From NCBI GenBank assembly GCA_903840355.1, contig CAIMFJ010000005.1, positions 1-64,000 on the forward strand: a stretch of 64,000 bases of DNA, given 5' to 3'. Numbering within the stretch: the first letter of the stretch is position 1; each line of letters starts with the position of its first letter. Shown one piece after another: positions 11,082 through 34,016 of the stretch. A program made the translations under genes and the position numbers. Origin of the DNA: an uncultured Opitutia bacterium. GTDB lineage: Bacteria > Verrucomicrobiota > Verrucomicrobiia > Opitutales > UBA953. The notes beneath the pieces were generated by a model. It searched no databases. It was not told the origin of the DNA and worked only from the letters and a program-made list of their open reading frames with translations.

Positions 11082-11795
11082 TTAGAGGAAAGTCACCTTG
11101 CCGGTTTCAAGTGAATAAATGGCCGGGGTAAGTTTGAGTTTGCCTGCTTGGTGTTCGCGGCGAATCAACGCTGAGCGCTCGAGTAGGTCTTGCACAATCC
11201 CCTGGGTGTTCGTGGTGCTCTCTTCGCGAAGCTGCTGCGAGCGTGGTTGGCCTTTGAATCCTTGCAGTCGTGGCTGTAAATCCCCTAAAAGTTCGCGAAG
11301 CGAGGTACTCGCTTCGGTATTAGTTGGGTGACCATCTAAAAGATCGAGGGTTGCTTTGACGGCGCCGCAGGAAGTGTGTCCTAAAATGACAACATGCCGG
11401 CTTTGAAGGTGCTGAATGGCGTATTCTAAACTACCAATTACATTGCTATCAAGTGACATGCCAGCTGTTCGCACGGTGAAAAGGGTGCCAATGCCTTGGT
11501 CGAAGATGATTTCTGGCGGGACGCGACTATCGGAGCAGGAGAGGATAATCGTGTGGGGCTTTTGGGCAGCAGCGAGGCGTTTGAGGAAATCGACGGTGGG
11601 AGTGGGCGCATCCGTTAGCTTCTTTTGAAATCGCAGGTTGCCCTCACGGATTTTTTCCAAGGCTTCGCTTCCGCTAGAGGCGGTCGTTAAAGAGGGGTAG
11701 GCTGGATTGGCCGTGGGGGTCTCAGCCCAGCTTAGGAGGGAACTGCCTAGAAAAATATTAAGAAGGAGGATGTTTTGGAAGGTAGAGGATTTCAT
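11082..11795 (-). CDS. Exported beta-class carbonic anhydrase
   Basis: Interconverts CO2 and bicarbonate with a zinc ion. From the chosen ATG (11795) the protein has 237 residues. A longer in-frame start 24 codons upstream would place a charged leader ahead of the signal peptide MKSSTFQNILLLNIFLGSSLLSWAE. The zinc ligands are C87 in SCSDSR, H140 and C143 in GHTSCG; D89 and R91 form the catalytic dyad. GTLFTVRTAGM and GSLEYAIQHL are also typical. Most beta enzymes are cytoplasmic, so the signal peptide points to periplasmic use, perhaps in pH or bicarbonate supply. Monocistronic. Confidence 0.9.
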   Translation of the reverse strand: MKSSTFQNILLLNIFLGSSLLSWAETPTANPAYPSLTTASSGSEALEKIREGNLRFQKKLTDAPTPTVDFLKRLAAAQKPHTIILSCSDSRVPPEIIFDQGIGTLFTVRTAGMSLDSNVIGSLEYAIQHLQSRHVVILGHTSCGAVKATLDLLDGHPTNTEASTSLRELLGDLQPRLQGFKGQPRSQQLREESTTNTQGIVQDLLERSALIRREHQAGKLKLTPAIYSLETGKVTFL

Positions 11796-11937
11796 GCCAC
11801 ACAACCTTAAGGAAAGCCGCGGGGTTGTTAATGGCATATAAACCTCAGGTGTTTTACCCTCTATCACCTTGGAATCCTTATTTCAGTTGAAACTTTAGGG
11901 GTTTAGAGGGGGTTAATGGCTATCTTAGCAACGATTC

Positions 11938-31669: not shown

Positions 31670-32437
31670 ATGCCACTGGCTTTAGCTTATCGCGAACTCG
31701 GCGGCGCGGGCCGTCCGATGTTAATTTTACATGGGTTGCTCGGCTCGGTGCGCAATTGGCAATCCGCCGGTGTTGAATTGGCAGCGCAGGGGTATCGCGT
31801 GTTGGCGGCAGATTTACGCAACCACGGACAATCGCCCTGGTCGGAGGATTGCTCTTATGAAGCGATGGCAGCTGATATCATTGCGCTGCTTGAACGACTC
31901 CAGTGTGGTCCGGTTCATTTAGTCGGCCATAGTATGGGCGGAAAGACGGCGATGCGGGTTGCGATGGATGCTCCCCACTTGCTGACGCGGTTAACCGTAG
32001 TCGATATTGCCCCCAAAGCTTACCCAGACCGCGTGCGGATCGAGTTCGCCGCGATGGCGGCGTTAGATTTAAAAAGTATTACCACTCGGAAGTCGGCCGA
32101 TGGGAGTTTGGCCACGCTCGTGACGGATTGGGGGATGCGGCAGTTTATCCTAACGAATTTAGTTAAGAATCAGGCCGAAGAGTGGGTTTGGGGCGTTAAT
32201 CGGGAGGCCCTGACGCAGTCCTTACCTTTGATTCTAGGCAATCCTTTGCGCGAGGGGGAAACTTGGGATGGGCCCACGACGTTTATTCGCGGCGGAAAAT
32301 CTTCTTACCTAAAACCTGAAGACGAAGTTTTGATTAAAAATCATTTCCCACATGCCACGGTGGTGACGTTGCCAGAAAGTGGTCACAACCCTCATTTTGA
32401 TGCTCGGTCTGGGTTTGTGGCCGCGGTTTGTCAGTGA
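31670..32437 (+). CDS. Alpha/beta hydrolase (YbfF-like esterase)
   Basis: A 255-residue cytoplasmic alpha/beta-hydrolase. LILHGLLGSVRNWQ forms the oxyanion region, the nucleophile serine lies in GHSMGGKTA (about 84-92), and the catalytic histidine in PESGHNPHFDA near the C-terminus. The acid is probably the aspartate in VVDIAP or one near the end. The layout LADLRNHGQSPW matches YbfF-type esterases. It begins two bases after the PilT-like gene, so the two are co-transcribed. It overlaps the facing membrane-protein gene by seven bases. Substrate unknown. Confidence 0.85.
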   Translation: MPLALAYRELGGAGRPMLILHGLLGSVRNWQSAGVELAAQGYRVLAADLRNHGQSPWSEDCSYEAMAADIIALLERLQCGPVHLVGHSMGGKTAMRVAMDAPHLLTRLTVVDIAPKAYPDRVRIEFAAMAALDLKSITTRKSADGSLATLVTDWGMRQFILTNLVKNQAEEWVWGVNREALTQSLPLILGNPLREGETWDGPTTFIRGGKSSYLKPEDEVLIKNHFPHATVVTLPESGHNPHFDARSGFVAAVCQ

Positions 32438-33057
32438 CCGCAACGCCCTGGAATTTTCTTCAAGAGGTAACGCGTGAGCAGGATCAGTCCGAGACCGAAA
32501 ATGACCCAAGCCGCCATTAGCCAACTAGACTGACGGGAGGGTGCGCGTGTGATGAGTGGTGATTCATCCCCACCAATCATGATGTTCCAGCGAATTTCCT
32601 GCTGAGGTTGCTGCTCGTCTGCCATCCATAATATAAAGGTCTGCGGGCATGCCGGCGGCACTTTAAGGGTAAGTGCTGCGGGGGGGGTCTTCCATTGGTA
32701 GTGGAGAATGCCGAGTTGGTAGTTTTGGGCTAATTCTTCCGCCGAATGGCCAAGAGGGCTGCGGGGGTCTAAGTGTTGGGCTGCTGCATAATGCTTGCTC
32801 GCCTGACTCGCGGATAAGGGGGTCGTTTGTTGCGAGGTGTGAAGTTCCAAGAAAGTATCTGCTGCCTGTTGAAAGTCTGCGGCGTTTTTAATCCAAAGGT
32901 TGGACTCGTAGTCGACGGTTAAGGTTAGTTCGGCCGAGCCATCCACGTGCCAAGCCCATTGAGCCGTGATGAACTCACCGTTGTGGGCGAAGCAAAAAAA
33001 GGGGAGCATGTAACATGCTCCCAGAACGAGAAAGTGACGATACCAGGCGGCGTTCAC
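32431..33057 (-). CDS. Exported single-pass membrane protein of unknown function
   Basis: About 208 residues from GTG 33057, which overlaps the TGA of the upstream propeller gene (GTGA). The N-terminal signal reads HFLVLGACYMLPFFCFA. A soluble periplasmic part follows (HNGEFITAQWAW..., with DVDYESNLW-like acidic strands), then one transmembrane helix near the C-terminus (WLMAAWVIFGLGLILLTRYLL) and a basic tail KKIPGRCGH. This outside-in layout resembles small anchored periplasmic sensors. The signal codons themselves form a strong terminator hairpin (32994-33022). If the first ATG inside the hairpin were used, the signal would shrink to MLPFFCFA. I do not recognise a family. Confidence 0.65.
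   Translation of the reverse strand: MNAAWYRHFLVLGACYMLPFFCFAHNGEFITAQWAWHVDGSAELTLTVDYESNLWIKNAADFQQAADTFLELHTSQQTTPLSASQASKHYAAAQHLDPRSPLGHSAEELAQNYQLGILHYQWKTPPAALTLKVPPACPQTFILWMADEQQPQQEIRWNIMIGGDESPLITRAPSRQSSWLMAAWVIFGLGLILLTRYLLKKIPGRCGH
32994..33022 (-). terminator. Intrinsic terminator inside a signal-peptide coding region
   Basis: On the minus strand GGGAGCATG, loop TTA and CATGCTCCC make a perfect 9-bp stem. It is followed by one C and seven T (plus-strand A at 32994-33000). It lies 32 bases past the propeller gene's stop (33054) and within codons 12-21 of the next gene. It can end the propeller transcript or act as an attenuator opened by ribosomes initiating at the overlapping GTG. 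Confidence 0.85.
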
Positions 33058-34016
33058 TTGACATCCCAACGCAGGACGCGGCCGTACTGATTCCACTCCG
33101 TCTCTAAAATATTTCCTTTGGCATCAAAGGTGATGCCGTGAGGCGAGGTCACGACGCCCGTACGCCAGTCGGCAGGTTTAACGCCGGGGGTATTGGTTTG
33201 TCCTTTGGTGTCATTAACGCCCAAGGAGGCGACCATCTTGCCTGCTTTGTTCCAAACCGAGACGCGACCCGCGATTTCGGCTACACACATCAGGTCGCCA
33301 TGGAAGGAAGCCGAGCTCGGATTACGCAAGCCCGTGTCGGCAATCATTTGGGGGTTGGTACCATCGAGATCGAGGTGGAACATGCGGTTATTCCCACGAT
33401 CGAGGCAGAGCAGGCGAGCGGGGCTGAAGCGATGGTCGACGAAGATTTTGTGGGTATTCTTAAACCCTTTGTTGTTTACCAGTTGGTTAGGGCCGCCGAA
33501 GACGCGGATGAATTTACCTGTCTTGTCGAATTGGAAAATCCAGCTCTTGCCGTACCCATCCACGATGTAGATGTCGCCGTTGTCAGCCACATCACAGTTG
33601 GTGAGCTTAAGGGGCTCTTTGGCCTGCTCGGCAGGGAAAGCACTCTTTTTGATTTCCATTACGATTTTGCCGTCGAGTTGGCACTTAATGAAACTCCCTT
33701 CTTTTTCGTTGAGGATGGTGGCGTAAATAAACTCTCCGTCTTCGGTTTTACGAATCACAAAGCCGTGAATCGATTTGGGCAAGGGCAGGGCTTTGATGAA
33801 TTTGCCATCCGTGCCGTAGACTTGAATCCCCGCGGCCTCTTGCACGCTCACGTAAATGAGGCCTTTGGAGTCGACGGCGATTTCGCCGTGGCCATTACCA
33901 ATGGTGGTCTTGCCAGGAGGGGGGGTGATGAAATCGGGGACGATTTCATATTTTAATTCTTGGGCCTGGGCGGCGAGACCAAGAACGAGGCAACCGAAGA
34001 GACGAAGTGTTTTCAT
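33054..34016 (-). CDS. Exported six-bladed beta-propeller (NHL) protein
   Basis: From ATG 34016 the protein has 320 residues with a signal peptide (MKTLRLFGCLVLGLAAQAQ). A longer start 21 codons upstream is rejected because it precedes the signal. Propeller signatures recur: GEIAVDSKGLIYVSVQEAAGIQVY, FVIRKTEDGEFIYATILN, CDVADNGDIYIVDGYGKSWIFQFD, RLLCLDRGNNRMFHLD and HGITFDAKGNILETEWN. A charged KTNC-type segment links the blades. It is likely periplasmic or outer-membrane-associated; no active site can be named. It precedes and overlaps the small membrane-protein gene. Confidence 0.8.
   Translation of the reverse strand: MKTLRLFGCLVLGLAAQAQELKYEIVPDFITPPPGKTTIGNGHGEIAVDSKGLIYVSVQEAAGIQVYGTDGKFIKALPLPKSIHGFVIRKTEDGEFIYATILNEKEGSFIKCQLDGKIVMEIKKSAFPAEQAKEPLKLTNCDVADNGDIYIVDGYGKSWIFQFDKTGKFIRVFGGPNQLVNNKGFKNTHKIFVDHRFSPARLLCLDRGNNRMFHLDLDGTNPQMIADTGLRNPSSASFHGDLMCVAEIAGRVSVWNKAGKMVASLGVNDTKGQTNTPGVKPADWRTGVVTSPHGITFDAKGNILETEWNQYGRVLRWDVK

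Follow-up and report, generated by a model that had tools for sequence, protein, structure and literature searches.

Terminators and attenuators of transcription that lie in coding frames are already known. The signal that controls one of them, the pyrBI attenuator of Escherichia coli, is pyrimidine-dependent pausing. Predicted intragenic terminators are usually dismissed as chance occurrences or as elements that are silenced by ribosomes. The pyrBI (pyrL) attenuator contains an intrinsic terminator within a translated frame, and excerpts of two studies report that translation can suppress it (PMC5021804, PMC4824070). According to one of these excerpts, a terminator in E. coli is repressed by a ribosome at a stop codon only if the two are less than about 27-30 nt apart, and a terminator placed 30 bp into a second open reading frame had its efficiency reduced by only about 10% when this frame was translated (PMC4824070). 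The engineered tR2 construct W48 described there has a terminator about 30 nt after the stop/start codon of a two- or three-gene unit. Transcript 3' ends within coding sequences, some of them attributed to intrinsic termination, are reported in excerpts on ORF-internal ends in E. coli (PMC7815308) and on intragenic ends in Pseudomonas aeruginosa (PMC8297930). For genes with a GTGA or ATGA overlap, re-initiation is the expected route of translational coupling, according to part of a review (PMC12548453). Literature searches retrieved no paper on a terminator that codon choice conserves where two genes overlap.

The locus described here lies in the window, i.e., the whole stretch of 64 kb of DNA that was analyzed. 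Judged from sequence comparisons, the element found in these lake Verrucomicrobiota very probably has a function, as a brake or switch that acts between two genes that overlap. The features of the locus are as follows:

33054..34016, minus strand: propeller gene, encoding a secreted NHL-type beta-propeller protein of 320 amino acids (PF01436 above cut-off)
32431..33057, minus strand: second gene, encoding a membrane protein of 208 amino acids with a signal peptide, a beta domain and one C-terminal transmembrane helix (no Pfam match)
33054..33057, minus strand: GTGA, in which the GTG start of the second gene and the TGA stop of the propeller gene overlap (in 38/38 genus orthologs)
32986..33057, minus strand: signal-peptide codons of the second gene, with a cleavage site before H25 (...CFA|HNGE) predicted from the sequence
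33002..33022, minus strand: terminator-like hairpin in codons 12-19 of the second gene, with a 9-bp stem GGGAGCATG/CATGCTCCC and the loop TTA (stem kept in 38/38 genus orthologs)
32994..33001, minus strand: tail of C and seven T, codons 19-22 (interrupted yet T-enriched in most relatives)
31670..32437, plus strand: convergent alpha/beta hydrolase gene, its stop overlapping the end of the second gene

On the minus strand, GGGAGCATG-TTA-CATGCTCCC (33022-33002) is followed by a C at 33001 and by T7 at 33000-32994. The stem of 9 bp is perfectly paired and has a loop of 3 nt, and the arrangement of stem, loop, C and seven T is exactly the one that the sequence-only reading had described. When the GTG at 33057 is counted as codon 1, the stem starts at the third base of codon 12 and continues into codon 19; the last T of the run is the first base of codon 22. 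The claim that the element occupies codons 12-21 was thus correct for its start, but not for its end, while the reported overlap of the GTG with the propeller stop is found as GTGA at 33057-33054. A G-C-rich stem with a short loop and a U-rich tract directly 3' of it are the characteristics of an intrinsic terminator, and both are present, the exceptions for the U-rich tract being the relatives L027, L032 and L039. As in the pyrBI case, the element overlaps a translated frame. The region of 121 nt around the hairpin has a fold z of -2.9 compared to shuffles; this value was obtained with the complementary strand, in which the same palindrome pairs. Six distinct sites in the 64-kb window combine 8 or more perfect pairs, 5 or more of them G-C, with 5 or more T in 8 positions; 20 dinucleotide shuffles gave 0.15 such sites on average. 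Comparison with the listed open reading frames revealed that the hairpin is the only one of the six that lies inside a gene on its sense strand, and that the remaining five are intergenic or antisense to a gene. The hairpin of the window was confirmed to be real and not due to chance. One other perfect hairpin with a T-containing tail (11296-11316, plus strand) is antisense within a carbonic-anhydrase-like gene (11082-11867, minus strand; named by sight).

Because the hydrolase stop overlaps the end of the second gene, there is no space for a terminator at that position in the window. The tail-to-tail contact of these two genes is unusually stable: the two stops are -4 to +6 nt apart in each of the 37 genus loci that extend to this point, and the locus L037 ends at a contig edge. 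Lack of space at the operon end was considered as a general reason for the element and rejected, because the hairpin also exists in L055-L057 and L060, in which a co-directional reading frame (OsmC-like by sight) lies 3' of the second gene. The use of C-ending codons in the propeller gene is near-fixed and very strong across the genus (mean 0.885, versus 0.60 in the hydrolase gene), which suggests high expression. The codon bias of the propeller gene exceeds that of the second gene in 30/34 genus loci and in 36/44 loci of another family, f53 (see below); in the window's species the difference is reversed (0.65 vs 0.73).

A protein search of 95 genomes revealed the second gene in 38, all of them among the 55 genomes of the window's genus. 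The amino acid identity to the window protein is 28-40% among 22 aligned relatives, and the codon identity at sites with the same residue is 16-31% (0.16-0.31) between the window and nine representatives, which is at or below the random expectation. Therefore, synonymous sites elsewhere in the second gene are saturated. In spite of this, the stem GGGGAGC-N6-GCTCCCC is formed by the same codons in the genus orthologs, and GGA GC. ... CTC CCC is found in 38/38 genomes. The window's species has GGGAGC-N9-GCTCCC, i.e., one extra loop codon, and its stem is lengthened inward. The strict pattern was found in 37 of the 55 genus genomes, at a single place in 36 and at two places in one (G016). The second copy in the latter genome, GGGGAGC-N4-GCTCCCC at G016:C15:4097-4114, lies away from the orthologous gene. 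A repeat element or repetitive extragenic palindrome was rejected, since these counts are low and the 21-mer of the hairpin has one copy in its own 2.27-Mb genome.

The two arms of the stem change together. Species in which codon 20 is CTG have the matching G in the preceding arm, together with the rare leucine codon CTA (9/10), which extends the stem, and species with ATG at this codon have the matching T there, together with GCA (3/3). Pairing was counted on 33 distinct sequences (27 of the genus and six others); in the MAFFT alignment used (A3) the 3' arm of L059 is one base off register, and L059 was kept in the counts. Among these sequences 87.9% of the cells are paired, compared to 47-61% when the arms are slid, and compensatory changes on both sides occur at 3 of 10 stem pairs. 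The covariation score is 0.110, compared to 0.090 +/- 0.008 after shuffling, and 6 of 500 shuffles reach it. The covariation support is modest because the core of the stem is almost invariant. The sequence-only reading had set conservation of the stem through synonymous changes as a check, and stem and T-rich tail are indeed kept via synonymous choice, accompanied by compensatory changes.

The codons that build the stem are unusual for the two genes. In the genus, codon 13 is GGA in 38/38 genomes, although GGA represents 7.8% of the glycine codons in the two genes; glycine at position 12 is always GGG (18/18; 9.2% in the two genes), and leucine at position 20 is TTG in 24/34 cases (8.8% in the two genes). 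CTC and CCC are each found in 38/38. When the 395 codon columns of both genes are ranked by improbability, GGA comes first and TTG follows in second place. With 13 representatives of the genus, P values of 1.8e-15 for GGA (13/13), 1e-6 for GGG (6/6), 5.5e-7 for TTG (9/12) and 0.0026 for a T-ending following codon (6/13) were obtained.

When 384 genomes of the class were searched with a profile, 15 proved to carry the second gene, and a search of the 68 genomes of the family f53, which belongs to another order, revealed it in 51. The propeller gene is directly upstream at 48 of the 51 f53 loci and absent at two (L061, L164); L173 could not be resolved. The two genes have an ATGA/GTGA overlap or a near-overlap also in f53. 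A GGGG(G)...CCCC(C) hairpin is found in 41 of the 48 loci with the gene pair. In five others (L133, L139, L154, L155, L165) a palindromic repeat, GAATGACGAAT...ATTCGTCATTC, is present in its place, and each of these five genomes has 1-6 places with the exact repeat pattern. The repeat has taken the place of the hairpin-bearing signal-peptide region in these genomes, so that the protein has a new N-terminus and a different hairpin stands at this position. The remaining two loci have an unrelated hairpin (L147) or none at all (L145). The hairpin is absent at both f53 loci in which the second gene has no upstream propeller gene (L061, L164). Matched changes of the arms relative to the genus are GGGGGAAC/GTTCCCCC in L063 and L167-L172 and GGGGGG/CCCCCC in L056, and bulges also occur. 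In L060, L063 and L167-L172 the hairpin codons precede the likely hydrophobic core; therefore, the function of the signal peptide does not explain the choice of these codons. In the family f65 the hairpin was found at one of five loci (L059) and is lacking in L058, L062, L064 and L065. A sample of 387 genomes of the phylum revealed no additional group with the element. The gene pair may have moved between orders, and its spread thus does not fix the age of the element. At one locus (L112, genome G257) a propeller gene without the second gene is followed by its own hairpin, CACGGGAGTTG...CAACTCCCGTG, and the second gene of this genome is located elsewhere (L061), without hairpin. Descent of the element from a stand-alone propeller terminator, for which this is the one locus observed, was rejected.

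The f53 sequences enabled a search for selection at every wobble base. For this, 27 representatives were chosen such that none exceeds a codon identity of 0.6 to the first member of any cluster formed before, and a column was included if 18 or more sequences were usable, which gave 650 tests in 192 columns. Although saturated, these representatives have a common ancestry, and all P values, including those of the genus, therefore serve as guides. The six lowest values (4e-13 to 4e-25) are, without exception, those of the stem codons and of the two codons that come next. Within the stem these are GGG (27/27, 4.5e-25), the preceding A-ending codon (23/27, 1.2e-18), GGA (21/27, 2e-15) and CCC (27/27, 2e-14); in the tail they are T-ending codons at the second (24/27, 3e-15) and the first position after the stem (25/27, 4e-13). 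The next values are 1.9e-8 (column 17, within the hairpin) and 7e-8 (column 5). This coincidence of the six most extreme tests with the stem and the T-ending codons indicates that both halves of the putative terminator, stem and tail, are under selection through codon choice. An excess of wobble T outside of the tail, which counts against this, was observed in f53 at columns 9 and 230 (4e-6 and 9e-6) and in the genus at codon +8 (6.5e-4) and four codons ahead of the G run (1.6e-6). The U-tail score is above the synonymous null (P<0.05) in 17/38 genus loci and 24/39 f53 loci. The tail is interrupted in most relatives and essentially missing in the three exceptions named above, and the uninterrupted T7 is a trait of the window's species and not of the element in general.

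Folding is in agreement with the codon data. Compared to nulls with synonymous codons, the fold energy has a mean z of -2.0 in the genus (38 loci; 14/38 within the best 1%) and of -3.05 in f53 (39 loci; 29/39 within the best 1%). A group of genus loci folds weakly, with z only -0.45 to -1.9 (L019, L021-L026, L028, L030, L031). When 150 nt upstream are included, the pairing probability of the stem is at least 0.8 in 36/38 genus loci (exceptions: L011, L025) and in 38/45 f53 loci; the other seven are six loci without this hairpin type and L158. Rfam covariance models gave no match at E<=1 in eight loci.

The distance from the propeller stop to the G run is 29-31 nt in 38/38 genus genomes, and that to the hairpin is 29-43 nt in the 39 f53 loci measured. 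The sequence-only reading had assumed that a ribosome at the overlap covers the hairpin, which is in conflict with a stem that starts 29-31 nt past the stop, beyond the limit reported for E. coli, where more than 27 nt is too far (PMC4824070, in part). Its broader claim of a tie to the upstream gene fared better: the constant GTGA overlap and the lack of the hairpin at both loci without a propeller gene support it in part, and only the covering as it had been worded is not supported. If the E. coli spacing rule carries over, the element would be a default, leaky stop that is not automatically lifted by coupling. A conserved Rho-independent terminator in the signal-peptide codons of the second gene, acting as a leaky stop between the two genes, is the reading that we prefer, with a probability of roughly 0.55. 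The data directly establish the hairpin, its tail, the synonymous selection on both, their distance from the propeller stop and the association with the gene pair, and the scheme would be the following. After RNA polymerase has passed the propeller gene, a G-C-rich hairpin and a U-rich tail would form about 30 nt after the propeller stop codon, and the ribosome that finishes the propeller gene would be too far behind to block folding. Most transcripts would end at the tail, as short propeller mRNAs that carry a stable hairpin at the 3' end. A smaller share of the polymerases would read through and produce a long mRNA for the membrane protein, which would be translated by re-initiation at the overlap. 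The most likely role would therefore be a short propeller mRNA as the default and a restricted second gene; termination and leakiness would serve a high ratio of propeller to membrane protein. The stronger codon bias of the propeller gene in most loci fits such an excess. The interrupted tail in most relatives, the modest folding in the genus and the reversed codon bias in the window's species speak against a leaky terminator, and so do two further points. A transcript that ends at the tail is a non-stop message for any re-initiating ribosome, and four of the five f65 loci as well as one of the 48 f53 pair loci (L145) lack the hairpin.

A trailing ribosome that re-initiates immediately might still reach the hairpin. 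The element could thus be a translation-gated attenuator, in which immediate re-initiation into the hairpin codons lets the polymerase pass and transcription otherwise stops, so that the second gene would need a well-translated first gene. This is possible, if doubtful. The overlap in all 38 genus orthologs and its counterparts in f53, the missing hairpin where the second gene has no propeller gene (2/2), and the suppression of the E. coli pyrL terminator by ribosomes (PMC5021804, in part) are in favor of it, but the E. coli terminator 30 bp into a second ORF was hardly affected by translation (a loss of about 10%; PMC4824070, in part), and neither a pause site nor an antiterminator partner came to light at the locus. 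A variant, which we regard as rather doubtful, is that the start of the downstream gene carries a full terminator just past the reach of the upstream ribosome and that the gene is opened by nothing but immediate re-initiation; the RNA function would then have shaped the codons of this gene and, to some extent, the residues of its signal peptide, a lost hairpin could be replaced by a repeat palindrome, and such elements would form a class in Verrucomicrobiota. The replacement by a palindromic repeat of different sequence at five f53 loci, as if any strong hairpin suffices, and the weak tail in some species would also be expected for a stabilizing or processing hairpin at the mRNA 3' end, which shields the propeller mRNA from 3' exonucleases after downstream cleavage and does not terminate transcription. 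However, such a function does not predict the selection for T at the two codons directly after the stem, and it is unlikely.

The location within signal-peptide codons, in the genus and in much of f53, could also indicate a hairpin that slows ribosomes and aids membrane targeting. This is very improbable, because the hairpin lies ahead of the likely hydrophobic core in L060, L063 and L167-L172, second genes without propeller gene (L061, L164) have no hairpin, and the T tail would be left unexplained. A palindromic DNA site for a regulatory protein would fit a near-palindrome that is present once per genome in most genomes searched. It is hardly plausible for arms whose spacing is 6 in most of the genus but 9 in the window and differs again in f53, where bulges occur, for arms that change jointly (GGGGAGC/GCTCCCC, GGGGGAAC/GTTCCCCC), and for a T selection that is one-sided, after the stem. 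An accident of conserved residues and codon bias is the least credible: CTC and CCC are frequently used here, the encoded residues are G-C rich and the fold z of the genus is modest, but GGG, GGA, TTG and T-ending codons are rare yet near-fixed, and the f53 wobble tests disfavor it. Frameshift stimulators are usually located within a few nucleotides of the shift site. A stimulator of frameshifting into the second gene was set aside, as the stem is about 30 nt past the overlap and thus much farther away than usual.

The protein that the leaky terminator would restrict has no Pfam match. Its structural model has a pLDDT of 89.6 and one C-terminal transmembrane helix, and the closest fold is the copper-binding domain of Ang-1 (9gce; Foldseek E 1.1e-4, TM 0.37/0.44; VIA Z 8.6, rmsd 5.0 over 131 residues). 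The HupE/UreJ-2 permease of Ang-1 is absent from the second-gene protein, which has the single C-terminal helix, without Pfam match, in its place. H25 and H104 are invariant in 23 sequences. Ang-1 has a metal site with an N-terminal histidine, as reported in an excerpt of PMC12537917, and the predicted mature N-terminal histidine of the second-gene protein (A|HNGE) fits this site. The likeness of the model to Ang-1 may be a lead on the function of the second gene.

The locus exemplifies an intragenic terminator-like element, stem and tail, whose fixed position is maintained, in lineages from two orders, by selection on the choice between synonymous codons, and a signal peptide whose codons also serve an RNA function. 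Rare codons that build a stem, followed by T-ending codons, represent a signature with which similar elements can be searched for. In addition, the element is a natural test of ribosome spacing and re-initiation as controls of transcription between overlapping genes. Compared to the described systems, it shares the terminator within a translated frame with pyrBI/pyrL, but there the frame encodes a leader peptide, whereas here it belongs to one of two overlapping genes and encodes a real membrane protein. It resembles the tR2 construct W48 in its position, but that construct is artificial, while the element described here is natural and conserved by codon choice. The internal 3' ends of E. coli and P. 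aeruginosa are, as far as the excerpts describe them, known from transcript mapping, in contrast to an element that was recognized by comparative genomics at a conserved position. And, compared to translational coupling by overlapping genes, this locus adds a signal that resembles a transcription stop just past the overlap.
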